A program made the translations under genes and the position numbers. A stretch of DNA of 38,280 nucleotides, taken from NCBI RefSeq assembly GCF_000337895.1, contig NZ_AOMA01000069.1, forward strand, positions 10,161 through 48,440, in the 5' to 3' direction. Source of the DNA: Halobiforma nitratireducens JCM 10879. GTDB taxonomy: Archaea > Halobacteriota > Halobacteria > Halobacteriales > Natrialbaceae. The notes under the pieces were generated by a model, which saw only the letters and a program-made list of their open reading frames with translations, was not told the origin of the DNA and searched no databases. Every line of letters starts with the position of its first letter. The stretch's first letter is position 1. Shown here one piece after another: positions 3,908 to 19,979 of the stretch.

Positions 3908-3930
3908 ACGGAAGCGTTGTCAGGTAGCGC

Positions 3931-4096: not shown

Positions 4097-4119
4097 CTTC
4101 GCACCCAATATTGCCAGGT

Positions 4120-5778
4120 ATGCAGATCAACGAGGCCGTCATCGATCGCCTGGTGGCAAACGACATCAGCGTGCTGTTCGGAATCCCCGGCAAGCAGACG
4201 TTGCCGTTGAACGAGTCGGTCAGCGAGCGCGAGGACGTCGAGTTCGTGATGGCTCGCCACGAGACCGCAGTCTCCCATCAGGCGTGGGGATACGCCGAGA
4301 CCAGCGGCGAGATGGCCGCGACGGTCGTCATCCCCGGTCCCGGTGACATGAACGCGATGAACGGCCTGAAGAACGCGAAAAACGACTGTACACCGCTGCT
4401 TCACATCGCAGTCGAGACCGAGCCCGACATTCGCGGCGGCGACGGCATCCACGAGACCCCACCCGACACCTACGACAACGTCGTCAAGGAGAACATCACT
4501 GTCGAGACGCCCCACAGCACGGTCGCCGAACTCCAGCGTGCGATCGACATCGCCCGCACACCACCGAACGGACCGGTCCGTGTCGGTATCCCGAAGAACT
4601 TCCTCCCCATGGACGTGCCGCTTGCCACACCTGCCGACTCCGTGGCTGCGCCCCACGCAGACGACGCCGCGGACGAGGTTCCGCGCGACGAACTCGAGGC
4701 CGCCGCCGACCTCCTCGCGGACGCGACGGCTCCGATCGTCGTCGCCGGCGGCGGCGTCCGATCGGCCGAGGCGAGCGACGAACTCCGCTCGCTCGCGGAA
4801 CGGCTCGAGGCTCCGGTTATCACGACGTACAAGGGCAAAGGCGTCTTCCCGGACGATCACGATCTCGCGGCGGGGACGCTGTGTGGGGGCACCGGAACGG
4901 CAGTCAAGGAGTGTCTCGCCGAAGCCGACGCGGCGCTCGGCGTCGGCACCGACTTCGACGCGGTGACGACGAAAGCCTGGTCGATCGACGTACCCGACGA
5001 TCTCGTCCACGTTACGCTCGAGGCCGCGGACATCGGTACTGGCTACGAGCCGACGGTCGGAATCGTCGCCGACGCCGCGGCGACGCTGGCGGCCATAGAG
5101 GAGACACTCGCCGAGCGTGGGCTCGCCGCCGACGCCGGCGACGAACGCGCCCGGCGCGCTCGAGCAGGCACGCGAGCCCGCATCGAAGAGCTACGGGAGG
5201 GTGACGAGCCGCCGCTTACGTCCGTCAGTGCTCTCGATGCACTCCGCGATGCGATCCCGCGGGATGCGGTCGTTGCCGCCGACGCGGGCGGGTTCCGCCT
5301 CTGGACGCTGGTCGCGTTCGAGGCCTACGATCCTCGCGACTACGTCAACCCCGGTTCGTGGGCGACGATGGGGACCGGCGTCCCGTCGGCGATCGGCGCG
5401 GCCGCGGCGAATCCCGACCAGGACATCGTCGCGCTCACCGGTGATGGCGGCCTGATGATGTGTATCCACGAACTCCACACGATAGCCGAGGAGGGATTCG
5501 ACGTCACCGTCGTCGTTCTCAACAACGCCGACTACGCGATCATCAGCGAGGAGGCCGAGCGTAGCTACCGGATGGACGCCGGCGAGTACGGCTGGGAGGG
5601 TGTTCCGATCGACTTCACGACCGTCGCCGACGGTATGGGTCTCGAGACGATGCGGGCCGAGACGCCCGAGGAGATCGAGTCGACGGTCACGGAGGCCGTC
5701 GACAGCGATGGCCCGACGCTGGTCGAAGTACCGACCGATCCGTCCGAACCACAGGCGAGTGTCTGGATGAACGAGTAG
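4120..5778 (+). CDS. Thiamine-diphosphate enzyme, acetolactate synthase-like
   Basis: Protein of 552 residues with the three-domain TPP-enzyme fold. The N-terminal PYR domain has the activating Glu in ARHETA and a family-like GPGDMNAMNG loop. A central domain covers about 185-330. The C-terminal PP domain has the cofactor motif GDGG...NN (LTGDGGLMMC, then VVVLNNADYAI). The family includes acetolactate synthase large chains, benzoylformate decarboxylase and related 2-oxoacid lyases. No small regulatory subunit or ilvC lies nearby, so a biosynthetic IlvB role is not supported. An MFS transporter and an IclR regulator downstream suggest catabolism of a 2-oxoacid or its precursor, which is inference. 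An upstream extension of the frame lacks coding character. Confidence 0.85.
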   Translation: MQINEAVIDRLVANDISVLFGIPGKQTLPLNESVSEREDVEFVMARHETAVSHQAWGYAETSGEMAATVVIPGPGDMNAMNGLKNAKNDCTPLLHIAVETEPDIRGGDGIHETPPDTYDNVVKENITVETPHSTVAELQRAIDIARTPPNGPVRVGIPKNFLPMDVPLATPADSVAAPHADDAADEVPRDELEAAADLLADATAPIVVAGGGVRSAEASDELRSLAERLEAPVITTYKGKGVFPDDHDLAAGTLCGGTGTAVKECLAEADAALGVGTDFDAVTTKAWSIDVPDDLVHVTLEAADIGTGYEPTVGIVADAAATLAAIEETLAERGLAADAGDERARRARAGTRARIEELREGDEPPLTSVSALDALRDAIPRDAVVAADAGGFRLWTLVAFEAYDPRDYVNPGSWATMGTGVPSAIGAAAANPDQDIVALTGDGGLMMCIHELHTIAEEGFDVTVVVLNNADYAIISEEAERSYRMDAGEYGWEGVPIDFTTVADGMGLETMRAETPEEIESTVTEAVDSDGPTLVEVPTDPSEPQASVWMNE

Positions 5779-5783
5779 CGTTC

Positions 5784-5825
5784 GGCTCTCGGCCCCCAGC
5801 TCCCAGCTCCCGGCTCTCGGCTTCC
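5784..5825 (+). repeat. Six 7-bp tandem repeats (RGCTCYC type)
   Basis: Starting six bases after the TPP-enzyme stop codon, six consecutive heptads read GGCTCTC, GGCCCCC, AGCTCCC, AGCTCCC, GGCTCTC and GGCTTCC. The array is pyrimidine-rich in the transcript and could lie in the 3' untranslated region. A similar heptad array follows gltB. Confidence 0.75.
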
Positions 5826-5938
5826 GGATCGACGGCACTGCGTCCGCCTGCTCGGCCACGAAACCGTTCAATTCTGCCGGTTTCGCCCGTCTGGAGTTAG
5901 CAACCGTTATGCATGCGGCTCTCCGTCTGTCGACACAC

Positions 5939-7231
5939 ATGAGTACGGAGCAGTCGGGCGGAATGAACGACAACGATAGATCCATCACGGGGTTCGTGAT
6001 GATCTCCCACGCCGTCGTTCATACCTACGAGCTCTCGATTCCGATCTTGATGGTGATCTGGCTCGCCGAGTTCGGGGTAGGGACGGCGATTCTCGGCACC
6101 GCGGTCGCGGTCGGCTACGGCCTGTTCGGCATCGGCGCGTTGCCCGCCGGCGTCCTCGTCGACAGGTTCGGCTCCCGCGAACTCGTGTTGGTCTGTCTCG
6201 CCGGAATGGGTGGCTCGTTCCTCCTGTTGAGCATCGCACAGGGCGTCTGGTCGATCACCCTCGCGCTCTGTGTCTGGGGAATCGCGGCCAGCATCTACCA
6301 CCCCGCCGGTCTCTCGCTGATTTCGACCGGCGTCGAACAACGGGGCACCGGCTTCGCCTACCACGGGATGGCCGGTAACTTCGGCATCGCGTTCGGGCCG
6401 CTGATCACCGCCGTGTTGCTGCTGTTTTTCGACTGGCGAGTCGTCACCACTCTCCTCGTGGTGCCGTCCGTGATCGCGATCGCCTACGCGATTACCGCCA
6501 GTTTCGACGAGAAGGCAGCCGTGCGTGCTGACGGCGGCACCGATACGGACGATCCCGACCCCGACGACGGGAGCCCGACCTCCCTGTCCGGGTTCGTCGC
6601 GGATAGCCGCGCCCTGTTTACTTTCGGGTTCACGATCGCGATCCTCGTGGTGATGATGAACGGGCTGTTCTACCGTGGAACCCTGACGTTCCTGCCGGAC
6701 GTGCTGAGCGACTTCCTGCCGGATGTCGCCGACCAACTGCAACTGTTCGATCCCGATAGCCCGATGGCCGAGGAGTTCGACCCGGCCTCGTACCTCTACG
6801 CCGGGCTGTTGATGGTCGGGATGGCCGGCCAGTACGTCGGCGGCAAGCTGACCGACCGGATTCCGACCGAGACTGGACTGATCGCGATCTTCGGCTCGCT
6901 GGCCGTCGTCGCCGTCCTCTTCGTCCCGGCCGCCGAGGCCGGGATGACATCGCTGTTGCTCGTCAGCGCAGTGCTCGGATTCTTGCTGTTCTCCCTGCAG
7001 CCGATGTACCAGGCGACGATCGCCGAGTACAGCCCACCCGGCGACCGCGGTCTCTCGTATGGCTACACCTACCTGGGCACCTTCGGTATCGGCGCTGCCG
7101 GGGCGGCGATCGCCGGCTACCTCCTCGAACTCACCACGGTGATGGGGACGTTCGTCGGCCTCGCGGTGTTCCCCGCGCTGGGTGCCGTGCTGGCGGTCGT
7201 CCTCTACCGGTACGGCACGCGTCGGGTCTGA
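5939..7231 (+). CDS. Major facilitator superfamily transporter
   Basis: Membrane protein of 430 residues with two six-helix halves around a charged, Asp-rich cytoplasmic loop at about 200-220. The loop between helices 2 and 3 reads GVLVDRFGSREL, an MFS signature A variant. The segment SIYHPAGLSLIS and the following GMAGNFGIAFGP resemble the fosmidomycin-resistance-like subgroup. A substrate cannot be assigned. The start is set at ATG 5939 because a TATA-like GTTATGC lies about 30 bp upstream; ATG 5909 is in frame but its extra residues are not hydrophobic or conserved in style. The gene lies between a TPP enzyme and an IclR regulator on the same strand, suggesting a linked function. Confidence 0.85.
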   Translation: MSTEQSGGMNDNDRSITGFVMISHAVVHTYELSIPILMVIWLAEFGVGTAILGTAVAVGYGLFGIGALPAGVLVDRFGSRELVLVCLAGMGGSFLLLSIAQGVWSITLALCVWGIAASIYHPAGLSLISTGVEQRGTGFAYHGMAGNFGIAFGPLITAVLLLFFDWRVVTTLLVVPSVIAIAYAITASFDEKAAVRADGGTDTDDPDPDDGSPTSLSGFVADSRALFTFGFTIAILVVMMNGLFYRGTLTFLPDVLSDFLPDVADQLQLFDPDSPMAEEFDPASYLYAGLLMVGMAGQYVGGKLTDRIPTETGLIAIFGSLAVVAVLFVPAAEAGMTSLLLVSAVLGFLLFSLQPMYQATIAEYSPPGDRGLSYGYTYLGTFGIGAAGAAIAGYLLELTTVMGTFVGLAVFPALGAVLAVVLYRYGTRRV

Positions 7232-7500
7232 CCCACAGCGCCGAGCGGCGGTCGTCGGCGCGTTCGTCCGGCGGTCGATCGATGTGGTGTGTCGTCGTCT
7301 TCGACGGTTCGACTCCGACTTTGACTCTGACTCCCCTGCGTGCTTGCTCTTTTCTCCACTTCGACGGGATCGCCCGTCAGCTCCGGGGTTCGCCCGTGGC
7401 GAAACTGAATCCGAACGGCAACGGCGGTCCCCGCGAGTGCTGCCCCGCCGGGACTGTCCGACCATACCCCCGCGGCCGGGTGCCACGCGTTCGAAAGGCG

Positions 7501-7506
7501 TTAAAG
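7501..7506 (+). promoter_or_regulatory. TATA box of the IclR gene
   Basis: TTAAAG is centred about 27 bp before ATG 7530. It supports that start over upstream in-frame codons, whose translation (7182-7529) lacks family similarity. Confidence 0.6.
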
Positions 7507-7529
7507 GTCCTCTCCCGTTCGTTTGGCCT

Positions 7530-8297
7530 ATGGGGTCGAACAGCGACGAGGGGGCCGGAATCAAGGCGACGGAGACGACGTTTGCCATCGTCGAAACGCT
7601 CGCCGACCTCGAGCGGGCGCGGTTGACGGAGATCGCCGACGCGGTCGGTATCGCCAACAGCACGGCGTCGGACCACCTCCGGACGCTCCGTGAGCACGGC
7701 TACGTCGTCGCGGACGACGAGGGGTACCGCCTCGGGCTCGCGTTCATGGACACGGGAACGCGGGCAAAGCGGTACTACCGGGACCTCCTCGAGGCCGCGG
7801 ACCCGGTGCTCGAGCAGTTGGTCGAGGAGACCAACGAGACCGTCAACCTCGTGGCCGAGGAGAACGGGGAGGGGGTCTACGTGGATCGTCGCGTCGGCGA
7901 ACGCGGCGTCCCGACCGATTCGTGGGTCGGCAGGCGAAAGCCCCTGCACACGATTTCGGCCGGGAAAGCGATCCTGGCGGAGCTTTCCGAGCAGCGCCGC
8001 GACGACATCCTCGATCACGGGCTGGCTGCGCCGGCCGAACGGACGATCACCGACCGGGCGGAACTCGAGGCGGAGCTCGCTTCGGTCCGGGACGACGGCG
8101 TCGCGTTCAACGATCGGGAGTCCCACGGGCGGATTCGGGCCGTCGGCTCCCCCATCGTCCTCGAGGACGAGGTAGACGCCGCGGTCTCGGTCGCGGGGCC
8201 TGCAAAGCGGCTCACAGACGACTACTTCCGGGAGGAGATACCGTCCCTGCTGCAGGGTGCGGTCAACGAGATCGAACTGAAGCTCACCTACCGGTGA
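7530..8297 (+). CDS. IclR-family transcriptional regulator
   Basis: Protein of 255 residues, normal for the family. The winged HTH spans about 10-72 (TEIADAVGIANSTASDHLRTL). The C-terminal effector domain spans about 85-252, with the family-like KPLHTISAGKAILAEL, and FNDRESHGRIRAVGSPI near the ligand pocket. IclR proteins bind small organic acids or sugars and control nearby catabolic genes. The neighbours upstream are an MFS transporter and a TPP enzyme, which are the likely targets (inference). The gene has its own TATA box 27 bp before the ATG. No clear operator palindrome was seen near the transporter promoter. Confidence 0.92.
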   Translation: MGSNSDEGAGIKATETTFAIVETLADLERARLTEIADAVGIANSTASDHLRTLREHGYVVADDEGYRLGLAFMDTGTRAKRYYRDLLEAADPVLEQLVEETNETVNLVAEENGEGVYVDRRVGERGVPTDSWVGRRKPLHTISAGKAILAELSEQRRDDILDHGLAAPAERTITDRAELEAELASVRDDGVAFNDRESHGRIRAVGSPIVLEDEVDAAVSVAGPAKRLTDDYFREEIPSLLQGAVNEIELKLTYR

Positions 8298-8352
8298 CGG
8301 CGTCGGCCCGCCGCTGCTTTTGCCTCTGGTCTCACACGGCTCGCCGCCGCAT

Positions 8353-8359
8353 CTTTAAG
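8353..8359 (+). promoter_or_regulatory. TATA box of the helicase-nuclease operon
   Basis: CTTTAAG lies about 37 bp before the ATG at 8394, placing the transcript start near 8380. A GGAG at 8378-8381 sits close to that start, so use as a Shine-Dalgarno is uncertain. This is the only promoter-like site seen for the three-gene operon. Confidence 0.5.
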
Positions 8360-8393
8360 TACGGACTCGCCCCTACAGGAGACGTATCGACCG

Positions 8394-10721
8394 ATGTCAT
8401 CGCCACCCGCTCCCTCGTCTCCGTCTCCGTCCTCGGCTGCGGTCCCGCTCGAGGGCGTCTGCAAGCTTCGCCCGGTCCCCGCAAGCGACCCGCTCGAGGT
8501 CGTCGCCGACGAGTACGCGGCCCTCGCGGCGGAGCACGGGGCACGGAACGTTCTGGTGCTGAAGCGACACCCGACCAGCCTCGAGGCGGTTCGACGGCGA
8601 CTCGCGGACGCGACCGACGGCACGTCCCGTTCCGCTCGCGTCGAATCGGTACCCGAGCACGCCTCGAAGGTTCTCGAGGAGTACGACCCGACGCTGGACC
8701 GACTCGAGTACGAGGAACGGATCGAACTCATCTCGCTCGTGATCGACGGGGCCAGCCGGGACGTGCCCGACTACCTCCGGCGGGCCGCCGAACGCGAGAG
8801 CTTCGCCAGGGACGTCGGGCAACTGCTGCTCGAGGCGACGCGCCAGCGACTCCGGCTCGAGGACCTGCCGCCGGCAGACGAACGGGCCGACTCGATCGAG
8901 GACTGCCTGGCGTTCCTCTACGCGATGAACGATCGGTTCCACGACGAACTCGAGGACCGAGGCTACGTCGAGCGAGCCGACGTGATCCCGCGAGTCGTCG
9001 ACCTCCTCGAGGCCGACGCCGACGGGCTGTGCTCGCGCGTGACCGACTCCTTCGACGCGGTGTTGGCCATCGAGTTCGAGGAGTTCCGGCGACTCGACCG
9101 ACGATACCTCGGCGCGCTCACGGCCGACGCCCGGCTGGTCTGTCTCGGCGAGCGCCACGCCAGCGTCGAGCGCACCCGCGTCGAATCCGGCCGCATCGAC
9201 GCCCTCGTCGGCGACGGACTCGAGGTCGAGGTCGAACTGCTCGAAGACGGCCCCGAAGACGCGGCTGAGCCGCCCCACGCGGAGATCGTTCGGTACCTGG
9301 CGACCGGCACCAGTTCCCCTTCCGCTGTCGAGAACGCGACCGAGGACTCGAGTGCACAGCGATCGGAGAACACGAGCGAACCCGAGCCCGAGAGTCGAGC
9401 GTACCGCATCCGCGCTCGGACGCCTCGCGAGCAGGTTCGAGCGGTCGCGACCGAGATACAGTCGCTCTCGGACCGGCGTGACTGGCGTTACGACGACGTG
9501 GCGGTCGCCGTCCCCTCGATCGAGCGGGTCCCGGAAACCCGGCGTCGACTCCGCGAGGCCGGCGTCCCGACGGCGACGATCGGAACCCCGTCGCTCGCCG
9601 AGGACCCCGCAGTCAACGAGCTCTACGCGTTCGTCACGCTCCAGTGCGAACTGGACCGCGCGGATGCGACGGCCTCGGTCGACACCGTCGTCCTCGCGGA
9701 CGACGCGGACGGAGCCGCGACGCCCGGCGACGGCCGGGAAGCCGCCCTCGAGCGCCTGCGGGCCCGCGTCGATGGGTTCTCGCCGGCCCTGCTCGAGTCG
9801 TGTCGCGATCCGAGCGTCGTCCGTTCGCTGCAACTGTGGCTCCGTCGGACGGACCTCAAGGACCGCATCGCCGCCGAGGAGGAGTGGGTCGACGCCCGCG
9901 AGCAGTACGAGGGTATCCGGCGTGTCCTCGAGGTCGCGTCGTTCGTCGAGGAGACCGACCTCGTTGCACCGGACTGGGACGGGCTCCGACGGATGCTCCG
10001 CCGGACGATTCAGTACGACGCACCGTACGTCCACGCCGTCGAGACCCGCCCACTCTCCGGCGGCGTCACGGTCTGTGTGGTCGACGACCTCAAGTACGAC
10101 TCGCGGGCGGTCGTCTTCCTGCTCGATCTCGTCGACGACGTGTACCCGGGCGAACAGTTCCTCTCGCAACTGTTCCCGTCGGCGTGGCTCCGCGACGCCG
10201 CGGCCTACCCCGCCGTCACGGACCCGTCGGCCGAGACCGTCGCGGCGACGTTCGGCGCGATCGATGCCCCCGACGAGGTCGGGGACCCCTTCGAAACGTA
10301 CCACGCACAACGGGCGCGAAGAACGCTCGCTCTCGGCGCTCGCGCCGCCCGGGACCGGCTGTACTGTTGCTCTTACGAGCGCGGCTCGGGAGGGCTGCGC
10401 CGAACGTACGACGAGTCACGGTACCTGCAGGGAATCGCCGCGACGCCCGGCCTCGAACTCGTGGACGCCGACACCCGGTCGAACGCGGCCATCTATGGCG
10501 AGACCAACGCCGTCGAAGCACTGCTGGACCAGCCACGCGGGGAACTCGAGCGCGTCCTCCGGGAGGCCAGCACGGGCGGGGACGCCGACCTCGCGGCGAC
10601 TGAAGCACTGTTCGAGGAGATCGCCGTGGTGCTCGCGGAAGGCGACATCGACGAGGAGCTGGCCGAGGCCGTCCGTTCGCAGTTCGAGTTCGCGGCCGGG
10701 GAGGTGGTACGCGATGACTGA
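8394..10721 (+). CDS. AddB-like helicase-fold protein lacking Walker A
   Basis: Protein of 775 residues. The C-terminal half keeps UvrD/AddB-type landmarks: a motif V-like stretch (VVFLLDLVDDVYPGEQF, about residues 572-588) and a motif VI-like stretch (RARRTLALGARAARDRLYCC). The N-terminal half reads like helicase 1A/1B (RNVLVLKRHPTSLEAVRRRL; LDRLEYEERIELISLVID). There is no GxGKT/S loop anywhere and no clear DExx box, so it should not hydrolyse ATP. The closest parallel is the AddB/RecC type of inactivated SF1 helicase, which scans DNA. A low-complexity acidic linker lies at about 303-330. It overlaps the next gene by 8 bases. The AddB relation is by eye, not by search. Confidence 0.7.
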   Translation: MSSPPAPSSPSPSSAAVPLEGVCKLRPVPASDPLEVVADEYAALAAEHGARNVLVLKRHPTSLEAVRRRLADATDGTSRSARVESVPEHASKVLEEYDPTLDRLEYEERIELISLVIDGASRDVPDYLRRAAERESFARDVGQLLLEATRQRLRLEDLPPADERADSIEDCLAFLYAMNDRFHDELEDRGYVERADVIPRVVDLLEADADGLCSRVTDSFDAVLAIEFEEFRRLDRRYLGALTADARLVCLGERHASVERTRVESGRIDALVGDGLEVEVELLEDGPEDAAEPPHAEIVRYLATGTSSPSAVENATEDSSAQRSENTSEPEPESRAYRIRARTPREQVRAVATEIQSLSDRRDWRYDDVAVAVPSIERVPETRRRLREAGVPTATIGTPSLAEDPAVNELYAFVTLQCELDRADATASVDTVVLADDADGAATPGDGREAALERLRARVDGFSPALLESCRDPSVVRSLQLWLRRTDLKDRIAAEEEWVDAREQYEGIRRVLEVASFVEETDLVAPDWDGLRRMLRRTIQYDAPYVHAVETRPLSGGVTVCVVDDLKYDSRAVVFLLDLVDDVYPGEQFLSQLFPSAWLRDAAAYPAVTDPSAETVAATFGAIDAPDEVGDPFETYHAQRARRTLALGARAARDRLYCCSYERGSGGLRRTYDESRYLQGIAATPGLELVDADTRSNAAIYGETNAVEALLDQPRGELERVLREASTGGDADLAATEALFEEIAVVLAEGDIDEELAEAVRSQFEFAAGEVVRDD

Positions 10722-11910
10722 CGGCACGGCCGTCCCCGACGACAGGAGCGACGACGTCGGCCCGTCGTTCTCCGTCGACGGGCTTCGGACGTACCTCCGG
10801 TGTCCCCGACGGTACGAGTTCACCCACGTCCACGACCTCGAGGGAGCCGCCGACGTTGCTACCGGTTCCGGCGGGCCCGAGGCCGAGGCGACGGTCGAGC
10901 GCGTCGCACTGTTGCGGACAGCGATCTGTGACGCCCTCGAGGACGGCGCGTCGGACGCCGACGCTGACGCCCTCGCCGAGCGGGTCGCCGCGCGGTTGGC
11001 GTCGCTGTGGGCCGACCACGACGAGCGGTTCCACTCCCGTGCACAGCGACGCCACGAGCGACGGATGCTCGAGGCGACGGTCGAGGCCTACGCCGAACGG
11101 TTCGGGGCCGATCACGCGGCAGGGGTTCGGCGGCTCGAAGAGGAGTTTGCCGACGGCAGTCGCGATCACGACCGGAACGCAAACGCTCACGACAGCGAAC
11201 GCCACACGGAGACCGACGCGGGCTCGCCGTTCGTCGGTCCCGACCTCCGGCTCTCGAGTTCGGTTCGTCCCGCACGCTCCACCGAGGGCGGCCCGCGCAG
11301 CGACCTGGCCGGCAGAGAGGAGGAGCCGGCCCCCGTCGAGATCACGGCGTCGATCGACTACGTTTACGCGGACGACGCTTCGCTCGTCGCCGTGCGCTTC
11401 GTCCCGACGCTGTGGTCGCTTGGCTCCCTTCGGTATCGCTCGGACTGGGAGCGCGTCGAGGACCTGTTCGTCGACCACTTCGATCCCGAGGCCAACGCGT
11501 TCGACCCCGACCCGGCCGCGGCCCTGCTCGAGACCGCGGTCGTCCTCGACGGGCTGCGGAACTACCGCGACCGGCTCGGGCTCTCGGCTCGGACCTGTCG
11601 GTACGTCCAGATTCCGCTTGCGGACCGCTCGGACGCGTCGATCAACTGGGTCAGGGACACCGTCGAGACGACGATCGACGCCGCGGACCTCACCGACGTC
11701 TACGTCGACCACCACACGTTCGGGATGACCCACGAGCACCGCAACGAGACGGTCGACGACCGGCTCGAGTCGGTCGTCGGAGAGATTCGGTCGGGGGCGT
11801 TCGATCCGAGCGAACGATGGGACGACATCGCTTCCGACGCTTGCCCGGACTGTGCCTACCGGGTGTGCTGTGGCGACTTCCTCGAGACGGAGGTGGGATT
11901 CGATGCGTGA
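10714..11910 (+). CDS. Fe-S PD-(D/E)XK-fold protein, probably catalytically dead
   Basis: Protein of 398 residues. One Cys in TYLRCPRRYEF (residue 30) and three in CPDCAYRVCC near the end (377, 380, 386) match the C...CxxCx5C Fe-S staple of AddB and Cas4-type nucleases. The nuclease core keeps an Asp in ITASIDYVYADD, but the strand that should carry (D/E)xK reads LVAVRFVPT, so the metal-binding pair seems lost. Family knowledge says the Fe-S staple is structural and DNA-binding. Together with the upstream helicase-fold gene it looks like the second half of a split AddB. An Arg/His/Asp-rich linker at about 148-205 is probably disordered. It overlaps both neighbours (8 bases each). Confidence 0.72.
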   Translation: MTDGTAVPDDRSDDVGPSFSVDGLRTYLRCPRRYEFTHVHDLEGAADVATGSGGPEAEATVERVALLRTAICDALEDGASDADADALAERVAARLASLWADHDERFHSRAQRRHERRMLEATVEAYAERFGADHAAGVRRLEEEFADGSRDHDRNANAHDSERHTETDAGSPFVGPDLRLSSSVRPARSTEGGPRSDLAGREEEPAPVEITASIDYVYADDASLVAVRFVPTLWSLGSLRYRSDWERVEDLFVDHFDPEANAFDPDPAAALLETAVVLDGLRNYRDRLGLSARTCRYVQIPLADRSDASINWVRDTVETTIDAADLTDVYVDHHTFGMTHEHRNETVDDRLESVVGEIRSGAFDPSERWDDIASDACPDCAYRVCCGDFLETEVGFDA

Positions 11911-14900
11911 GCCCGACCGCGATGAGGACGGGAACGGGAACGGGAACGGGGACGGCGACAGCGACAGCGACGTGCCCGAGACGACCGCCGGCGCGGCCGA
12001 CCTACTGACCGGCGACGACGGCGACCTCAACCCACGGGGGAACCAGCGGGCCGTCATCGAGAGTACGGCCGCCTGCACCTCCGTCGACGCCGGCGCGGGG
12101 ACCGGGAAGACGACGACGATGCTCATGCGGATCGAGCGCGCCATCGACCGGGGTGAGGTCGACCCCGAGGACGTGCTCGTGCTCACCTTCGCCAACGAGG
12201 CCGCCGGCAGCATCCGCGAGGCCGTCGCCGAGCGACTCGACCCCGAGGCAGCCGCGGCGATCGACGTCTACACCTATCACTCGTTTTGCCATCGGCTGGT
12301 CCGGGAGTACGCCTACTACCTCGGGCTCGACCCCGAGTTCGACGTGGTCACCGACCGCAAGCGACGCCGGCTCGTCGGCCGGCTGCTCGCCGAGAACGAC
12401 TACGACTTCGCGGCCGCGACCGGCGACGGCTCCCCCGCCGAGCTCACACGCGAGGTAGACCAGTTCGTTCGGGAAATGAGCCAGGAAGACGTCACCCCCG
12501 ACGACCTTCGCGAGCGGCTCCCCACGATCGAAACTCTCGAGTTGTGCGCCGAGTTCGTCCTCTGGCTCGAGCGCAGGGCACAGGACGACCTCTCGTTCGA
12601 CGCCGACTCGCTCCGATACTTCAACGAGCCCGACCACCTCGAGACGGCGACGGCGTCGCTGATCGACTACGGGAAACTCATTCAGTACTGCCGCGAGAAG
12701 ATCGAGGAGTCGCCGGCGTTTACCGACGAGGGCGTCGTCAGCGATGTCGATCGCTATCTCGGGGTCCTGCAGGACTGTGTCACCCGAACGATCGAGACAC
12801 TCTCGCTCGAGGACTCGGAGACGAAACAGCTCCCGCGGGCGCTGTTTTGCAACGTGATCCGCCGGGACGCCACGGGGCAGCTCGAACAGAGCCCGTTCGG
12901 CCGGCTGAAACACTACGTCGAGTTCCTGCGGCTCGCACGCCACTACGCCGACGTCTACGCGGCCTACCACACCGAACTCGAGACGCGAGGCGCACTGGAC
13001 TTCGACGAACTCGTCCGGACGGCGACGGACCTACTCGCGGACGAGCAGGTCGCCGACGAGATCGCCGGACAGTGGCATCAGGTCTACTGCGACGAGTTCC
13101 AGGACACCGACGAGACCCAGTTCGAGTTGCTGACCGAGCTTACGCACGGGCCCGACCGGCCGTCGCTGTTCGCGATCGGCGACAAGGACCAGTCGATCTA
13201 CGGCTGGCGCGGGACCGACCGAAAGGGGCTGGATCGGCTCGAGAACGTCTACGACGATCACGAGACGATCGAACTCGGACTCAACTTCCGGTCGCGCCAG
13301 GAGATTCTCGAGCTCACCAACCGCTGTGAGTACGGCCACCAGTCCTCGAAGACGCTGCGGGAGGTGGATCGGGACCGAGACGAGTACGGCGCGTACGACG
13401 GGTACGAGTACGCTGGCGGGAGCGATGGCGATGGCGATGGAGACGGCGACGGCGACGGAAACGACGGGAACGACCTCGAGCCCCCCTTCGACCACGTCGT
13501 CAAGATCGAAAGCGACGAGATCGAACGCGCGACGGCCGATCAGGTCGCGACGACCGTCTCGCGGCTGCTCAACGGCGAGGCGGAGAACGTGCCCCGACGC
13601 CGCCTCGCGGACCTCGCGGTCGTCGTCCGGACGAACCGTCACGCCCAGGCAGTCGCGGACGCGCTGCAGGAACGCCGGATACCCCACGAAGTATCCGGGT
13701 CACCCGGTGGGGAGGTCTCGCCCGGGATTCGAACCGTGCTGTCGTACCTCCGGGCGCTGGTCGATCCCGCGGCCGACGCCCACCTCCGCCGGGTGTTGCT
13801 CTACCGGTACCGCGTTTCGAACGGCGACCTCCGAACCCTCCAGCGGGCCGCTCGAGGCGACGAGCGGTCGCTTCGGGACGCCGTGTTCGCGGTCGGCGAG
13901 ACCGGAGAAGGCGGCGAGGGGGAACGGGGAGCTGACGGCACGAAACGAAACGCCGAAACCGACCCGGAGCTCCCCCGAGAGCGACTGGCCCACCCCGAGC
14001 GCGTCGAACGCGCTCGCGACCACCTCGTGACGCTCGATCGCTACCGACGTATCTATCCCTTGTCGGGCTTTCTGCGACGGTTCCGAGACATCACCGACGT
14101 CGAGTGGTACCTGACCAGCGAGGAGCGAGCGGCGTTCGACCGGATCGACCGGTTCGTCGACGCCTACGACGCCGACTCGGTGTTGCGAACCCTCTCCCCG
14201 CAGTTCCTCGACGCGCTAGAGGGGGCCCTCGAGGGCAGTGGGAGCGACCGAAACCGCGGCACGCACTCGGACGACCGCGTCGACGTGATGACCGTCCACC
14301 AGGCGAAAGGCCTGGAGTTCGACACCGTGCTCGTCCCCTACCTCTCGGACGAGGAGTGGTGCGTCGAGTCGGACTACGCCGAACGCTTCCGGGAGCGGCT
14401 ACTCGCCGCCACCCTCGAGGACGACGTGGACTCGCCACTGCAGGCCGACCTCGCGGCCGAAACCGTCGGCGAGGAGTGGCGCGTGCTGCACGTCGCGCTC
14501 ACCCGGGCGGCGAACCACCTGTTCCTGTTCGGCTCCGCCTACGAGTACGACACCGACGAGAGCGGGACACTGAGCGTCTCGACGGCCGACGCCTGTCTCC
14601 CGTCCGCAATCGAGTGGTCCACCGCGGGGCGGCGGATGAACCTCTGGTCGTCGGTCACCGAGAGCTTCGCCCAGGTCCGTGAACGCTATCCCGACAGCGT
14701 CGCCGACCGAACCACGGCGCTTGCACGGTCAAGCGACGTGACGCCGGGCTCGATCACCTACTACGCCGGCTACGAGGACCGACAGGTCGAACCCCTGCGA
14801 ACGCAGGCGGCGATCGACCGGGTTCACCGGCTCGGGCGACTGTTACGGGACGGGAACCTGCTCCCGGCCGCCGACGCGGCGACTCACACGGCCGCGGACG

Positions 14901-15841
14901 GCTCCGACCGCTTTCGGGTACCCACCGAACGCAGCCTCTCGGCGCTGACAGCCGATACCGTCCGATTCCCGGTCGACACCCTCTCGGACGCGAGCGAGCT
15001 TCCGATCGCGCTGACCCACAGCTACACCGCGATGCGGACTCACGAAACCTGTCCGCGAAAGCACTACCTGGATCACGTCGTACGGGCGGTCGACGACCCG
15101 CCGACGGAACGCGGGGAGGATGGCACGTCCCCGGCATCGGTCACCAGCCGAGGGGAACGAGGGTCACGCATCGTCGGGACCGTCTTCCACGCCGTCGCCG
15201 AGGAGGCGTTCCACCGGGAGTACGACACCCGCGAGGAGTGGCGTGCAGTCGCCCGACGACAGCTCACCGCCCGTGGACTCGAGTCGTATCGGGCCGAGGT
15301 GCTCGCCTGCGTCGACCGGTTCTTCGAGGCGACGGCCGCCGACTACGATCGCCCGGTCGTCGACTGGGACCCGATCGCCGCCGAGTTGCCGTTCTCGCTC
15401 GCGTCGGTCGACGGCGTCGCGGGCGAGGTGGTCGGCTACGTGGATTCGGTCCGGCTGACTCCCGACGGTGACGTGGCCGTGCTCGACTACAAGACGACAG
15501 CGGATCGGGTATCGCCCGAAGACGCCGTCCAACTCGCGCTGTACGCCCGTGCCTGCAAAGAGCGGTTCGACGACCCTATCGGGGCCGTGGGGTACGTCTA
15601 CGTCGGCTCCGACGCCGCGTCCCGCGAGGGCCACGACTCGACGGCCACAAATGCCCCTCGCGTGGACCTCTTCGATCCGACCACCGACGAGTTGCCGGCC
15701 TGGGAGACGGTGCTCGAGACCCTCGAGTCGGTCGACGAGCCATCCTACGCGGAGACGACGCCGGGAGAGCACTGCCGTTACTGTCCACACCGCTCGCTCG
15801 GCTGTGGGCCCGACGAGTACACGCCGAGCGTCGACGAGTGA
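11903..15841 (+). CDS. UvrD/AddA-like helicase with Fe-S PD-(D/E)XK nuclease domain
   Basis: Protein of 1312 residues with a complete SF1A motor: Walker A GAGTGKT (64-70), motif II CDEFQDTDE, motif III GDKDQSIYGWRG, motif IV LNFRSRQE, motif V MTVHQAKGLEFDTV, motif VI VLHVALTRAANHL. The C-terminal nuclease has VGYVDSVR, then VAVLDYKTT with intact D and K, then QLALYAR. A Cys in ETCPRKHYL plus CRYCPHRSLGC indicates an Fe-S staple. Such enzymes resect double-strand breaks for recombination. Two low-complexity inserts, GN/GD/SD at the N-terminus (10-22) and a GD run at about 510-525, come from hexanucleotide repeats. Start ATG 11903 overlaps the upstream stop. The Fe-S nuclease sits on the active helicase here; in bacterial AddAB it is on AddB. 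Confidence 0.88.
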   Translation: MREPDRDEDGNGNGNGDGDSDSDVPETTAGAADLLTGDDGDLNPRGNQRAVIESTAACTSVDAGAGTGKTTTMLMRIERAIDRGEVDPEDVLVLTFANEAAGSIREAVAERLDPEAAAAIDVYTYHSFCHRLVREYAYYLGLDPEFDVVTDRKRRRLVGRLLAENDYDFAAATGDGSPAELTREVDQFVREMSQEDVTPDDLRERLPTIETLELCAEFVLWLERRAQDDLSFDADSLRYFNEPDHLETATASLIDYGKLIQYCREKIEESPAFTDEGVVSDVDRYLGVLQDCVTRTIETLSLEDSETKQLPRALFCNVIRRDATGQLEQSPFGRLKHYVEFLRLARHYADVYAAYHTELETRGALDFDELVRTATDLLADEQVADEIAGQWHQVYCDEFQDTDETQFELLTELTHGPDRPSLFAIGDKDQSIYGWRGTDRKGLDRLENVYDDHETIELGLNFRSRQEILELTNRCEYGHQSSKTLREVDRDRDEYGAYDGYEYAGGSDGDGDGDGDGDGNDGNDLEPPFDHVVKIESDEIERATADQVATTVSRLLNGEAENVPRRRLADLAVVVRTNRHAQAVADALQERRIPHEVSGSPGGEVSPGIRTVLSYLRALVDPAADAHLRRVLLYRYRVSNGDLRTLQRAARGDERSLRDAVFAVGETGEGGEGERGADGTKRNAETDPELPRERLAHPERVERARDHLVTLDRYRRIYPLSGFLRRFRDITDVEWYLTSEERAAFDRIDRFVDAYDADSVLRTLSPQFLDALEGALEGSGSDRNRGTHSDDRVDVMTVHQAKGLEFDTVLVPYLSDEEWCVESDYAERFRERLLAATLEDDVDSPLQADLAAETVGEEWRVLHVALTRAANHLFLFGSAYEYDTDESGTLSVSTADACLPSAIEWSTAGRRMNLWSSVTESFAQVRERYPDSVADRTTALARSSDVTPGSITYYAGYEDRQVEPLRTQAAIDRVHRLGRLLRDGNLLPAADAATHTAADGSDRFRVPTERSLSALTADTVRFPVDTLSDASELPIALTHSYTAMRTHETCPRKHYLDHVVRAVDDPPTERGEDGTSPASVTSRGERGSRIVGTVFHAVAEEAFHREYDTREEWRAVARRQLTARGLESYRAEVLACVDRFFEATAADYDRPVVDWDPIAAELPFSLASVDGVAGEVVGYVDSVRLTPDGDVAVLDYKTTADRVSPEDAVQLALYARACKERFDDPIGAVGYVYVGSDAASREGHDSTATNAPRVDLFDPTTDELPAWETVLETLESVDEPSYAETTPGEHCRYCPHRSLGCGPDEYTPSVDE
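11926..11970 (+). repeat. Hexanucleotide repeat coding for GN/GD/SD dipeptides
   Basis: GGGAAC units pass into GGCGAC and AGCGAC units, in frame at the N-terminus of the helicase-nuclease. The run codes for alternating Gly-Asn, Gly-Asp and Ser-Asp. Confidence 0.8.
13430..13473 (+). repeat. Hexanucleotide GD repeat inside the helicase
   Basis: GATGGC and GACGGC units repeat about six times, coding for Gly-Asp dipeptides between helicase motif IV and the following 2B-type region. The reading frame is kept. Confidence 0.8.
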
Positions 15842-16052
15842 GTCGGCCGCGTGTATCGTCTCGGGAGTCCTCGGAGTGCTCGATCCGTTTTGCTTCGTCC
15901 GCTCTCCACGCCCCCCGTTCAGAGTGAATCGTGGCTCCGCAGGCGTCGGTTCCGGACCAGTGAACGGTCGTCGGCTCTTATTCCCGCTCGACGGCGGCCG
16001 ATCGCCAACTCCCCGAACGCGGCGCGGAAGGTGCTGGCGACGGATACGTGCG

Positions 16053-16058
16053 CTTATG
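16053..16058 (+). promoter_or_regulatory. TATA box of the Nudix gene
   Basis: CTTATG is centred about 27 bp before ATG 16082, which selects this start over longer in-frame versions beginning at 15851. Confidence 0.55.
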
Positions 16059-16081
16059 TCGGTCGGAACGAACGATCCAGT

Positions 16082-16627
16082 ATGATCGAGGCGACGCTTT
16101 GTTTTCCGCTCCGGACGAGCCCAGGCGACGGCGAGTCGGAGTCCCAGCCGGCAGACGACGTGAGCGAGGCCGACGAGGTACTCCTGATCGAGAAACGCCG
16201 TGGACTCGGCGACGGCTGGTACAACGGTCCCGGCGGGAAACTCGAGGGCGACGAGACGCCCCGGGAGTGTGCAGTCCGAGAAACCCACGAGGAGGTCGGC
16301 CTCGAGATCGATCCCGCCGACCTCGAGAAGGCCGGCGAACTGACCTTCCTGCTGGACGGGGAGGTCCACACGTTCTGTCACGTGTTCCGGACGACCGCGT
16401 TCCGCGGCGAGCCGCGGCCATCGGAGGAAGCCCGCCCGGAGTGGGTCGGCGTCGAGGAGGTCCCGTACGATCGGATGTGGGAGGACGACCGACTCTGGCT
16501 GCCCGGCGTCCTCGAGGGACGGACGATCGCCGGGGAGTTCGCGTTCTCGGGCGGTGAACCGCTCGACGAAGCGGAGTTCGTCCGCCACGACCTCGAGTGG
16601 GACATCTCGTTTACCGACGACGGGTAA
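16082..16627 (+). CDS. Nudix hydrolase, MutT/8-oxo-dGTPase-like
   Basis: Protein of 181 residues with a Nudix box at about 52-74: G, five residues, E, seven residues, RE, T, H, EE, V, G, L. The usual aliphatic residue after RE is Thr here; the metal-binding REx2EE core is intact. The preceding segment GWYNGPGGKLE, and the later WVGVEEVPYDRMWEDDRLWLP, resemble MTH1-type 8-oxo-dGTP pyrophosphatases, so a nucleotide-pool cleaning role is likely. An acidic loop at about 15-30 (ESESQPADDVSEAD) interrupts the first beta strand region. The gene converges on the kinase gene with a 93-bp gap. Confidence 0.88.
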   Translation: MIEATLCFPLRTSPGDGESESQPADDVSEADEVLLIEKRRGLGDGWYNGPGGKLEGDETPRECAVRETHEEVGLEIDPADLEKAGELTFLLDGEVHTFCHVFRTTAFRGEPRPSEEARPEWVGVEEVPYDRMWEDDRLWLPGVLEGRTIAGEFAFSGGEPLDEAEFVRHDLEWDISFTDDG

Positions 16628-16720: not shown

Positions 16721-18346
16721 TCAGTCGATCGTCGGTTCGTCGTGGAGAATCGGTCGGTCGTCGATTTCGGTTTTGCTTCCCGCCTGCGGCAGTTCGACGG
16801 TCACCCGTGTGCCCTCGTCGGTCACGTCGAACGCGAGGCTGCCGTCGGCGCGTTCGACGACCCAGTTGATCAGCCAGAGACCGGTGCTGCTCGCGTGCTC
16901 GAGTGGTGTCTCTGCCTCGCTGTCGAGGGGCGCGAGTTCGTGCTCCGGAATGCCCGGCCCGTCGTCCTCGACGACGAGGCGGGCCGTCCCCTCGTCGGTA
17001 GTCGTGGCTGCAATTTCGACCGTCGGTTCCGGCCCGTCGTTGTGCCGGACTGCGTTCTCGACGAGATTGTCGACCGCGCTCCGGAAGTGCGTTCCCGCCG
17101 TGACCCGACAGTCCGACGGTACGTCGACGGCCATCGTCGCGTCGGGGTACCGTTCGCGGGCGGTCGCGACCGCGCCCTGGACGACAGTCTCGAGGTCGTG
17201 GTCGGTCAATTCGCCGCTCTCCTCGAGAATCGAGCTGATCGTGCGGGCCTTCTCGCTCGTGCGTTCGATCCGCTCGGCCGTCTCGAGGATCGCCTCCCCC
17301 ATGGAGGCGTACGGCTCCGTGAGGTCGCCGGCGATCCGTTCGGCGTATCCCGCGACGAGGGTCAGATCGTTCCGGATGTTGTGTCGGAGCACACGAGTCA
17401 GAATCTGTCTGAGAATCTCGAGTTCCCGTTCTCGCCGCTCGAGTTGTCGCTCCCGACGAATGCGGTCGGTTATATCGGAGTTGACGGAGATGTAGCCCTC
17501 GATATCGCCGTCGGCAGTGATCGGCGCGACGGTTTGATCGACGACGTATCTCGTCCCGTCTTTTCGTTCGTTGATGACCGCGCCTTTCCAGACCTCGCCC
17601 GCCGTGATCGTCTCCCAGAGGTCCGTATAGAAGGCCTCATCGTGAGCGCCGGACTTGAGAAGCCGCGGGGTCCGGCCGATCGCTTCGTCGGCGTCGTACC
17701 CCGTTACTCGCTCGAAGCTCGGGTTGACGTACTCGATCGTTCCGTTGGTGTCCGCGATCAAGATCGAGTGGCCGGTCTGTTCGACGACGCGTTTGAACCC
17801 GCGGAGTTCACGCTTCCGCTCCTCGAGGGTCGATACCCGCGTCGCGAGTTCGATCGACTGGCTCCGGCGCACGAGGTGACTCCGAAGGCGACGAAAGAGC
17901 CGCGGCGAATCGATCGGCGCGTCGATCACGTCGTCGACGATCGGCGGCCGCCCGTCGTCGCCGGTCCGGGGCCCGGCGTCCTCGAGGAGCGACGCCGAGC
18001 GCCGACGGGCACCCTCCTGCCGGACGAGAACGACGGGGAGAAAGGTCGGGTGACTCTCGTGGGTCAACTCGCGTAGTTCGCTCCGGTAGCGGGGAAACAC
18101 ACGGTCCTCGACGAGATACAGGTCGGCGCGCGGGGAGGGACCATCGCGGTCGGTCAGGACGCGATACCGCTCCGCGAGCAACTCCTCGAGAGCGTCGCGG
18201 TCCCCTTCGTTCGCGACGAGGAGGTGGACGGTTTCCGTCTCGGTAGGACCGGCTCCCGCAGCCTCCTCTCGAGTGTCCTCGCGTCCGGTCGAACCGGCCC
18301 CACGGCTGTCCGGGGGCGAAGACGCTGACTCCGGAACGTCACTCAT
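16721..18346 (-). CDS. PAS-domain sensor histidine kinase
   Basis: Protein of 541 residues. The N-terminal 150 residues look like a degraded receiver domain (VHLLVANEGDRDALEELL). One PAS domain follows at about 165-290 (ILIADTNGTIEYVNPSFERVTG), then a short coiled coil, the histidine box VLRHNIRND (His is the phosphosite), and an ATPase domain with N box DNLVENAVRHND and G1 box DDGPGIPEHE. The G2 box is reduced to STGLWLINW, as in many haloarchaeal kinases. No membrane segment is present, so sensing is cytoplasmic. Start is ATG 18346, overlapping the KaiC-like gene stop by 8 bases (ATGAGTGA); an in-frame GTG at 18355 is the alternative. No response regulator with output domain lies nearby. 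Confidence 0.9.
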   Translation of the reverse strand: MSDVPESASSPPDSRGAGSTGREDTREEAAGAGPTETETVHLLVANEGDRDALEELLAERYRVLTDRDGPSPRADLYLVEDRVFPRYRSELRELTHESHPTFLPVVLVRQEGARRRSASLLEDAGPRTGDDGRPPIVDDVIDAPIDSPRLFRRLRSHLVRRSQSIELATRVSTLEERKRELRGFKRVVEQTGHSILIADTNGTIEYVNPSFERVTGYDADEAIGRTPRLLKSGAHDEAFYTDLWETITAGEVWKGAVINERKDGTRYVVDQTVAPITADGDIEGYISVNSDITDRIRRERQLERRERELEILRQILTRVLRHNIRNDLTLVAGYAERIAGDLTEPYASMGEAILETAERIERTSEKARTISSILEESGELTDHDLETVVQGAVATARERYPDATMAVDVPSDCRVTAGTHFRSAVDNLVENAVRHNDGPEPTVEIAATTTDEGTARLVVEDDGPGIPEHELAPLDSEAETPLEHASSTGLWLINWVVERADGSLAFDVTDEGTRVTVELPQAGSKTEIDDRPILHDEPTID

Positions 18347-19979
18347 CGAGGTCACCCTGGTCGTCGACCGGCCGCGACGGGCCCGACTGTCCTCCGGTTC
18401 GACCGTCGAACACCCCCGTATAGCCCGGAACCGGATCGCCGATCCGGAGCCCGTCGGACGTGATCTCGAACCGCCGCATCGTGTGTTCGAACCCGCCCGT
18501 ACGTTTTTTCAACACGCCGATCACCTTCTCGAGCCCGCCGTCGACCTCGAGATAGCTGACGAAGACGATGTTGTCGGCGAGGTGGCTGAGATTAGCGCTC
18601 GTCGCCGTCGTTACGCCCGACAGCTGCCGAATCTCGTCGGTTATCAGCACCGTTACGCCACGATCCGTCAGGTACCTGGTCAGCGCGCGGAGTTTCCGGA
18701 CGAGCCGTTCGCGCCGTCCCTGCAACGACATCGTGTAGCCGTCGATCCCGTCGATCAGCACGACTTCGATGCCGTCGTCGACGTGATCACGGACCTGGTG
18801 TGCGAACTCTTCGGCGGATCGCGACAGCGGTTCGACCGGTTCGATCGAGAGCGTCCCGTTCCCCCGGTAGGCTTCGATCGGTACCCCGACGGAGTCCGCC
18901 CGCCGGACGAACGTCTCGACGCTCTCCTCGAAGAGGTAGAGCGCGGCGTCGCTTCCCTCCGTCGCAGCCTCTACGAGGAACTGCGTCGACAGCGTCGTCT
19001 TCCCCGCACCGGTCGGTCCGCTGACGAACGTGACGGTCCCGCGCTCGAGGCCGCCGCCGAGCAACTCGTCGAGGGCGGGGTTGCCCGATTGGAGTATTCC
19101 GGGGTCGCAGCCGACCCCGGTTTCGGTTTCGGTTTCGGTTTCGGTCTCGGCCTCGACCCCGACACCGGGTTCGTCCACAGACGACTTCCCTCGCCGTTCT
19201 CTATCGGAGACCAGCGCGGGAAAGACCTCGACGCCGCCGTCTCTGATCGCCATCCCGTGACTCCCGCGTCGCTGCCCGTACCCGCGGTGTTTGGTTACCC
19301 GGAGCCGGCGTCCCCCGTCGCCACGTCGCAGCTCGATGACGCTGTCGCTCAGCGACTGTACCTCCACGTCGTACTCGGTTCCGCCCTCCTCCGAAGATGC
19401 CGCACCGTCGTTCGAAACGGTTGCGGTCGTGAGAACGGTCGCGTTCCGTTCCTTGAGAAAGCGCATCAGCGACAGAATCCGCTTTCGGAACTGGTGGTCG
19501 TTGGGTTCGATGTATCGCAGTTGTGTGATCGGATCGATGACGACTCGGGACGGGTCGATACGGCTGATCGCCTCGTGGATGTCCTTCGTATATCGATCGT
19601 GATCGACGGTCCCCGGATCGACCAGTTCGTACGATCGATCTTCCGTAAAAAACTCCGACTCCGGCCCGAGATCGAGAAACGCGGCGTCCTCGACGTCGAT
19701 CCCGAGTCGCGAGCCGTTGGTGACGATCTCCTCGCGGGACTCCTCGCCGTGGACGAACAGAACGGTCTCTCCACGTTCGAGCCCTGCCTCGAGGAAGTGC
19801 ATCCCGAGCAGCGTTTTGCCGGTCCCGGGCGCGCCACAGACGAGATAGAGGCGACTGTTTACTAACCCGCCACGCAGCACTTCGTCGAGGCCGTCGATGC
19901 CGCTCCCGATCCGTTCGGGTGCGGCGTCGTTCGCGTCCACTTCCGATTCGTCGCGTTCCGCGTCGGTGTCAGTAGTCAT
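18339..19979 (-). CDS. Double-domain KaiC-like RecA ATPase
   Basis: Protein of 546 residues with two RecA folds. Domain 1 has Walker A GAPGTGKT, the catalytic Glu pair in HGEESREE, and Walker B RVVIDPITQL. Domain 2 has GPTGAGKT, YLFEESVE and VVLIDGIDGY. At the position of the KaiC phosphosites I read ANLSHLADNI, so the Ser is kept (465) and the Thr appears replaced by His (466); this alignment is by eye. The linker has a Glu-Thr run from a hexanucleotide repeat. In haloarchaea such proteins are thought to work in signalling rather than as a Kai clock, and no KaiB or KaiA is present. Its overlap with a kinase gene and proximity to a second kinase support that. Confidence 0.88.
   Translation of the reverse strand: MTTDTDAERDESEVDANDAAPERIGSGIDGLDEVLRGGLVNSRLYLVCGAPGTGKTLLGMHFLEAGLERGETVLFVHGEESREEIVTNGSRLGIDVEDAAFLDLGPESEFFTEDRSYELVDPGTVDHDRYTKDIHEAISRIDPSRVVIDPITQLRYIEPNDHQFRKRILSLMRFLKERNATVLTTATVSNDGAASSEEGGTEYDVEVQSLSDSVIELRRGDGGRRLRVTKHRGYGQRRGSHGMAIRDGGVEVFPALVSDRERRGKSSVDEPGVGVEAETETETETETGVGCDPGILQSGNPALDELLGGGLERGTVTFVSGPTGAGKTTLSTQFLVEAATEGSDAALYLFEESVETFVRRADSVGVPIEAYRGNGTLSIEPVEPLSRSAEEFAHQVRDHVDDGIEVVLIDGIDGYTMSLQGRRERLVRKLRALTRYLTDRGVTVLITDEIRQLSGVTTATSANLSHLADNIVFVSYLEVDGGLEKVIGVLKKRTGGFEHTMRRFEITSDGLRIGDPVPGYTGVFDGRTGGQSGPSRPVDDQGDLDE
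19117..19160 (-). repeat. Hexanucleotide repeat coding for ETETET in KaiC-like linker
   Basis: On the plus strand CGGTTT units repeat about four times, followed by CGGTCTCGGCCT. On the coding strand this gives alternating Glu-Thr, between the two RecA domains. Confidence 0.8.

Follow-up and report, generated by a model that had tools for sequence, protein, structure and literature searches.

Three overlapping genes of the haloarchaeon Halobiforma nitratireducens JCM 10879 raise the question of what kind of helicase-nuclease they encode, and of how such an enzyme would work with one of its two nuclease folds stripped of catalytic residues. The genes lie in a 38,280-nucleotide stretch of contig NZ_AOMA01000069.1 (hereafter the window), and an original prediction, made from the sequence alone, had described them as an AddAB-like enzyme whose AddB subunit is divided between gene 1 and gene 2 and whose only working nuclease belongs to gene 3. 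The analysis below suggests that the outline of this description is likely to be right: gene 3 would be the motor and nuclease of a haloarchaeal AddAB-type helicase-nuclease, genes 1 and 2 would together form a two-piece AddB in which gene 2 is structural, and the enzyme would have a chromosomal end-processing role.

A conserved operon of three overlapping genes

Both the coordinates and the 8-base overlaps that had been reported for the two adjacent gene pairs were verified in the sequence (Table 1). Gene 1 was matched in 74 of 194 genomes of the class Halobacteria, namely 46 of the 50 from the window's family, Natrialbaceae, and 28 of the 144 others, and genes 2 and 3 were matched in 58 genomes each (thresholds 0.001 and 1e-60); because the survey scored the best few first-pass candidates, these counts are lower bounds. 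Sixty loci were fetched from 55 of the 74 gene 1-positive genomes, the other 19 genomes (one being the window's own) falling outside the locus reading. A scan of named genomes, covering the best 80 of 90 relatives, left 79 named loci, among which the operon closest to that of the window is from Halobiforma haloterrestris (78% in gene 1).

The survey bore out the expected conservation of gene order. Genes 1, 2 and 3 are consecutive and co-oriented in 59 of the 60 fetched loci, each start overlapping the preceding stop, which is more than chance would explain. Among the named loci, genes 1 and 2 overlap in 79 of 79, and genes 2 and 3 in 77 of the 78 in which gene 3 is visible; of these, only L161 has no second overlap, and L124 stops within gene 2. 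Each start was taken as the first in-frame ATG, GTG or TTG no more than 20 bases before the preceding stop, and the exact overlap lengths hinge on this rule. No fetched locus had genes 1 and 2 but lacked gene 3, an arrangement named in advance as speaking against the prediction. Degenerate copies were seen at L084 (a remnant of gene 1, genes 2 and 3 giving no match), L056 (a gene 3 shortened to 529 aa) and L161 (positions 11031-15381, a broken gene 3 with its start missing).

Gene 3 combines a UvrD-type motor with an intact nuclease

As predicted, gene 3 has the features of a full UvrD motor joined to an intact Fe-S-type nuclease. It matches the Pfam families UvrD-helicase (E = 2.4e-55), UvrD_C (2.2e-23) and PDDEXK_1 (PF12705; 1.7e-26), and 75 of 79 rows have the complete set of motor residues, DYK motif and four cysteines; the remaining four are incomplete sequences. 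By motifs and domains it is thus a superfamily 1A motor with a C-terminal RecB-type nuclease, the layout of AddA. A phmmer search of PDB sequences with the isolated gene 3 nuclease returned no match.

The idea that the Fe-S nuclease had been relocated to the motor subunit is not supported by comparison. A sister lineage of the operon, described below, carries DxK and four cysteines in both nucleases, and 12 of 13 solo UvrD-nucleases from the same phylum already show the pattern of three C-terminal cysteines, the upstream cysteine being present too in 11.

Gene 1 resembles a helicase without a motor

No match to a single gene 1 sequence was found in Pfam, NCBIfam, PADLOC or PDB sequences, and the Pfam scan gave no nuclease match in particular. 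A profile of 25 rows was more informative: among PDB sequences its best match was AddB (3u44_B, E = 2.1e-9), followed by UvrD1 (8.7e-9) and AdnA (1.3e-4). When the same 25 members were scanned singly, 11 matched the NCBIfam AddB model and 11 matched UvrD_C, weakly in both cases (best 9e-5 and 3.8e-5, respectively). An AlphaFold model of gene 1 (predicted local distance difference test, pLDDT, 81; predicted template modelling score, pTM, 0.82) retrieved PcrA first (1.3e-20) and AddB at 7e-20, with UvrD matched too, and the query TM-score against AddB chains, 0.59, was the highest among the 50 matches listed. Walker A and DExxD patterns occur in none of 80 gene 1 rows (the 79 named loci and the window). 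These results agree with the view of gene 1 as a helicase fold without a working motor, and the profile match, the NCBIfam matches, the TM-score and a profile-profile score given below all point to a resemblance to AddB in particular.

Gene 2 keeps a nuclease fold and its cysteines, and exists in two lineages

Gene 2 matches the same Pfam nuclease family, PDDEXK_1, with an E value of 1.3e-9. Its profile gave matches at chance level only among PDB sequences and the search with the gene 3 nuclease had come back empty, so that a comparison of folds was needed. The AlphaFold model (pLDDT 85, pTM 0.87) retrieved the Argonaute-associated Cas4 protein ACE1 (4.2e-4) and then AddB (5.2e-4 and 8.7e-4), with loose superpositions on both (root-mean-square deviation 10 to 13). 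The gene 2 of the window has R-F-V in place of the D-Y-K of its relatives and retains all four candidate ligands C30, C377, C380 and C386. The description of gene 2 as a PD-(D/E)XK fold with a Cys set and no DxK therefore stands, and AddB among the top fold matches fits the AddB-like fold that had been proposed.

Scoring of these residues in 79 rows (78 named loci and the window; L124 is incomplete) divided gene 2 into two lineages. The D and K of DxK are kept in 27 rows and absent in 52. In the intact lineage, D, K, Q and Y are all present in 27 of 27 rows; in the catalytic-loss lineage, to which the window belongs, none of the four is present in any of 52. The four cysteines, by contrast with the catalytic residues, are kept in all 79 rows of both lineages, as are H134 (11113-11115) and D215 (11356-11358). 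Judged by sequence, then, the Fe-S-type cysteines of an AddB nuclease are present in every scored gene 2, and its catalytic residues are confined to the sister lineage. The claim of a single working nuclease is supported, by catalytic residues, for the window's lineage and fails as a general haloarchaeal architecture.

The loss does not look like decay. Ratios of nonsynonymous to synonymous substitution (dN/dS) are 0.11-0.38 in 13 pairs from the catalytic-loss lineage and 0.06-0.13 in five pairs from the intact lineage, rough values obtained from Nei-Gojobori counts on close pairs that partly share rows. These ratios rule out a decaying pseudogene and indicate that gene 2 of the window's lineage is under purifying selection, possibly with some relaxation of constraint relative to the intact lineage.

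On the tree of gene 1, catalytic loss maps to one change with a support of 99 (FastTree). Since AddB-like comparators have DYK, a rooting taken from them would make the loss the derived state. Forty-eight of 51 named loci of the catalytic-loss lineage are from Natrialbaceae, and its genus labels cluster on the tree (10 changes against a shuffled mean of 23.8; 0 of 200 shuffles as low). The family labels of the intact lineage are scattered as if shuffled (14 changes against a mean of 13.7; 150 of 200 as low), and the intact-lineage operon looks to have moved horizontally. One intact-lineage copy, L166, is on a plasmid record. At least five genomes carry both lineages (L045/L066, L044/L067, L041/L082, L087/L080 and L048/L070), and a second, partly overlapping set adds L132/L165, L134/L155, L125/L157 and L148/L170; given this co-occurrence, the two lineages are probably not redundant.

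Single-chain AddB-like proteins in the same phylum

A search of the phylum placed 23 of 54 gene 1-positive genomes outside the class's order, and regions from 18 of these were fetched. In five non-haloarchaeal regions (L212, L214, L215, L216 and L218) one gene encodes a single-chain AddB-like protein, and the gene after it, which it overlaps or abuts, is AddA-like. The five AddB-like frames are 1043-1150 aa long and, as read off the sequence, have no Walker A and have DYKTG with a C-terminal Cys set; their AddA-like partners have Walker A, and the partner in L215 has no DxK match. In an NCBIfam scan of four of the five pairs, the first gene scored best with AddB-type models (10-102 bits, well short of the curated cut-offs), and the second with AddA (317-379 bits, also under the cut-off). 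The other 13 regions (L201-L211, L213 and L217) contain a solo UvrD-nuclease, and within the fetched 18 kb none shows a separate gene of the gene 1 type. Helicase fold and nuclease thus share one chain in five archaeal comparators and occupy separate genes in 59 of the 60 fetched haloarchaeal loci. Given single-chain AddB before AddA in the same phylum, an AddB in two genes appears to be the better reading, and the comparison upholds the proposed division of AddB with its descent unsettled.

Two genomic neighbourhoods

The flanks of the two lineages differ. Among 45 distinct loci of the intact lineage, Argonaute is nearby in 12 and a PLD protein in 21, and 34 have a match to at least one of seven defence-type queries; the Argonaute identity was given by PADLOC and by Pfam Piwi. 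The same seven queries match in none of 74 distinct loci of the catalytic-loss lineage, a comparison that is biased, as the queries came from sister-lineage flanks. As a control, PADLOC (E up to 1e-8) was run on nearest neighbours selected in the same way for both lineages. The intact lineage contributed 54 proteins, from 25 of its 27 loci, and the catalytic-loss lineage 64 proteins, from 27 random loci of the 50 usable; the flank gene caller was crude and misses genes. Argonaute was found in 6 of 54 intact-lineage neighbours versus 0 of 64. Among the matches listed for the intact lineage (25 of 42 families) were PDC-S27 (5), PDC-S01 (5), PDC-S02 (3) and PDC-S11 (1); the catalytic-loss lineage gave PDC-S07 (5), subtilase (2) and RT-Protease_XI (two models, 1 each).

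At six loci (L145, positions 2079-13370, L153, L156, L157, L165 and L167) Argonaute, PLD and genes 1, 2 and 3 lie in this order on one strand, with 5 bases from the PLD stop to gene 1. It is possible that Argonaute, a PLD-like nuclease and the three AddAB-like genes form a five-gene defence operon in haloarchaea. Neither Argonaute nor PLD has a tblastn match in the window, so the window does not contain the Argonaute and PLD genes of an APAP operon.

The flanks of the catalytic-loss lineage are mostly of housekeeping type. Within the first eight called genes on each side, across 52 rows, we read CBS-type proteins in 33, an oxidoreductase in 18, a UvrA-like protein in 16 and a NUDIX protein in 15, names that come from sequence reading with Pfam support for some members. 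In the window itself, relatives of these flanking genes are a CBS-type gene at 3500-3907 and a NUDIX-type gene at 15851-16627. The UvrA-like protein, found for example on the 5' side in L094, possibly marks a repair neighbourhood.

Weighing the alternatives

That genes 1 and 2 derive from AddB is not the only way to read them. They might instead be a decayed and split duplicate of a solo UvrD-nuclease (a UvrD-Cas4 fusion) that became analogous to AddB independently, which we consider unlikely. The profile-profile scores of gene 1 (AddB 168, solo 154, gene 3 93, AddA 91) speak for AddB, albeit with an AddB alignment of 5 rows only, as do the gene order, AddB then AddA, and a tree of 43 proteins in which genes 1 and 2 fall next to AddB, and gene 3 groups with AddA and the solos. 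Several observations weigh on the other side: the tree joins long branches, with a program warning; the profile-profile score of gene 2 is higher with solos (89) than with AddB (78) or gene 3 (73); the gene 1 hidden Markov model scores 12 of 13 solos at 49-84 bits (L217 at 21) and the five AddB-like proteins at 27-39; and most solos have the same Cys set. The gene 2 score and the gene 1 model are what leave descent from AddB unsettled. Further points count against an AddAB-type enzyme as such. In bacteria the AddA nuclease is not known to have Fe-S cysteines, whereas gene 3 has four, and 4 of 5 archaeal AddA-like proteins lack the C-terminal pattern. The position aligned to the AddB latch residue E129 is Glu in just 30 of 80 gene 1 rows, and the ionic latch was dropped as a sign of Chi control on that account. 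By AddAB logic, moreover, an enzyme that has lost its AddB-type nuclease should leave the 5'-ended strand uncut, contrary to the needs of resection. Gene 2 of the window's lineage might, finally, still be a nuclease whose catalytic residues have migrated, as is known in the PD-(D/E)XK superfamily (part of PMC1185551). All 52 rows of the lineage have H134, D215 and an acidic residue at E393, and 51 of them have a basic residue at R68. However, D, K, Q and Y were lost together, the replacements of D and K vary, the lineage has no invariant Lys, and D215 and E393 are its only invariant acidic residues; the E393 position, beyond the last Cys, is also E in 23 of 27 intact rows. We regard migrated catalysis as very improbable.

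The role of the operon poses a separate choice. In place of chromosome maintenance, the window's operon might still act in defence by breaking down invading linear DNA, only without adjoining defence genes. Such a role would accord with the Argonaute, PLD, Mrr and other defence-type genes beside the sister lineage and with the link between UvrD-Cas4 fusions and defence drawn in section 8 of PMC5704561, and the PADLOC control did find mad3 and mad8 in the flanks of the catalytic-loss lineage (1 of 64 each), a further point against a chromosomal role. We nevertheless judge it quite unlikely: the seven defence-type queries are silent in this lineage, with the bias noted above, nearest neighbours include CBS (15 of 64), NUDIX (5) and pterin-binding (4) proteins, genus labels track the tree, and gene 1 is present in nearly all genomes of the family. 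Apparent vertical descent and this near-universal presence favour a role in chromosome maintenance. An outright replacement of HerA-NurA was rejected, as NurA is found in 192 of 194 genomes, one of the two without it having a gene 1 match (G024) and the other none (G162); the operon is thus an addition.

A working model

In the AddAB-type model that we prefer, gene 3 would be the AddA-like subunit and the only ATP motor; in the window's lineage it would also be the only nuclease that retains its catalytic residues. Genes 1 and 2 would be AddB as two proteins, a motorless helicase body and a nuclease-fold body. The overlapping genes probably couple translation and the three proteins probably form one complex; this complex, Fe-S occupancy of the Cys sets, strand handling and the repair role are what we infer from the comparisons above. 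Gene 2 of the window's lineage is most likely structural and DNA-holding, comparable to the dead nuclease domain of RecC in RecBCD, with the gene 3 nuclease cutting. The AddA nuclease of AddAB acts on the 3'-ended strand (part of PMC4027173), so that gene 3 of the catalytic-loss lineage would either cut both strands, as RecB does, or make no 3' overhangs. The likeliest role is DNA end processing in chromosome maintenance, alongside the NurA-type machinery of nearly all these genomes, and the sister lineage with two intact nucleases would be a mobile, defence-linked version. Archaeal resection is treated in portions of PMC7776575 and PMC9960219.

A more speculative history, which we put forward tentatively and with some doubt, is that a mobile, Argonaute-linked two-nuclease enzyme became fixed in an ancestor of Natrialbaceae and was converted to chromosomal repair when its AddB-type nuclease was disarmed, the Fe-S body being kept to hold DNA. 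The opposite direction, from repair to defence, fits the tree equally, except that intact catalysis must predate its loss. Were this history true, the RecC solution would have been reached a second time, independently, and relatives in either state would still be living. The step from two nucleases with catalytic residues to one can be assigned to one branch; related archaea still show both states, and five of the genomes read carry the two together, which makes the purpose of the second nuclease directly testable.

Features of the window

Further elements are collected in Table 1. On the minus strand at 16721-19979, a histidine-kinase-like gene overlaps a gene for a two-domain KaiC-like ATPase, names given from sequence reading only.

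Table 1. Positions in the window of the three genes and of the sites discussed
Feature	Position	Strand	Observation
Possible TATA-like promoter element 5' of gene 1	8354..8361	+	Sole copy in window, 0.04 expected; weak, pattern picked post hoc
Gene 1, AddB-type helicase fold without ATPase motifs, 775 aa	8394..10721	+	Profile, fold model, motif scan
Gene 1 region resembling helicase motif VI (residues 641-661)	10314..10376	+	Weak alignment to same UvrD1 region; R642, R643, L645 invariant in 25 rows
8-base overlap, gene 1 stop and gene 2 start	10714..10721	+	Overlap 8 in 34/59 and 4 in 25/59 loci
Gene 2, PD-(D/E)XK fold, four Cys retained, catalytic D/K/Q/Y gone, 398 aa	10714..11910	+	Pfam, model, alignment
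Cys30 of gene 2, first Fe-S ligand candidate	10801..10803	+	Cys in 79/79 scored rows
R228-F229-V230 of gene 2 at sister-lineage D-Y-K site	11395..11403	+	D and K in 27/27 sister rows, 0/52 of window lineage
E273 of gene 2 at Q of QxxxY	11530..11532	+	Q in 27/27 sister rows, 0/52 of window lineage
Cys377, Cys380, Cys386 of gene 2, other Fe-S ligand candidates	11842..11871	+	Cys in 79/79 scored rows
8-base overlap, gene 2 stop and gene 3 start	11903..11910	+	1 to 17 bases in 59/59 three-gene loci
Gene 3, UvrD-type motor with intact four-Cys RecB/Cas4-type nuclease, 1312 aa	11903..15841	+	Pfam, profile, alignment
Walker A of gene 3 (residues 63-70)	12089..12112	+	G66, G68, K69, T70 in 60/60 rows
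DYK of gene 3 nuclease (residues 1195-1197)	15485..15493	+	59/60 rows; L056 shortened
Cys1291, Cys1294, Cys1301 of gene 3 (Cys1050 at 15050-15052)	15773..15805	+	59/60 rows; L056 shortened

Comparison with known systems

The titles and abstract openings of open-licence literature yielded no split or archaeal AddB, which is weak evidence of absence. The operon shares with AddAB a UvrD-type motor with a C-terminal nuclease, a motorless helicase-fold partner, a nuclease body with Fe-S-type cysteines and the order AddB then AddA; the helicase-like domain, latch and strand paths of AddB are described in parts of PMC4824097 and PMC4027173. It differs in that AddB is here two genes, that its nuclease part is without catalytic residues in the window's lineage, and that the motor subunit's nuclease has four cysteines too. 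The mycobacterial AdnAB resembles it in the weak AdnA match of the gene 1 profile (1.3e-4) and the strong AdnB match of the gene 3 profile (6.2e-67). However, AdnA and AdnB each combine motor and nuclease in one chain (part of PMC13309787), and gene 1 has neither a nuclease match nor Walker A.

Gene 3 has the layout of the UvrD-Cas4 fusions covered in part of PMC5704561, a UvrD motor with a PF12705 nuclease and a Cys cluster, but is accompanied by genes 1 and 2 in the complete haloarchaeal loci read, whereas the 13 solos have no gene 1-type neighbour within the fetched 18 kb. The sister-lineage operon often directly follows Argonaute and PLD genes as found in haloarchaeal APAP (part of PMC11442185), unlike the operon of the window. 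Argonaute neighbours include a UvrD-helicase group (excerpts of PMC6299218), and a helicase gene is noted beside some Argonaute-PLD operons in passages of PMC11442185, whose main text has no occurrence of "AddAB". The sister lineage thus ties an AddAB-type enzyme to haloarchaeal Argonaute-PLD defence, where helper helicases are suspected (same source, in part).

The closest parallel in catalytic state is RecBCD, in which RecC places a dead helicase fold and a dead nuclease fold beside one motor-nuclease (sections of PMC1185551). Here both folds are likewise without catalytic motifs, but they are encoded by two genes where RecC is one chain, and the Cys set is retained. The dead nuclease domain of RecC has been interpreted, in the same part of that source, as having evolved by way of an AddAB-like intermediate; the same step appears to be visible in these haloarchaeal operons.

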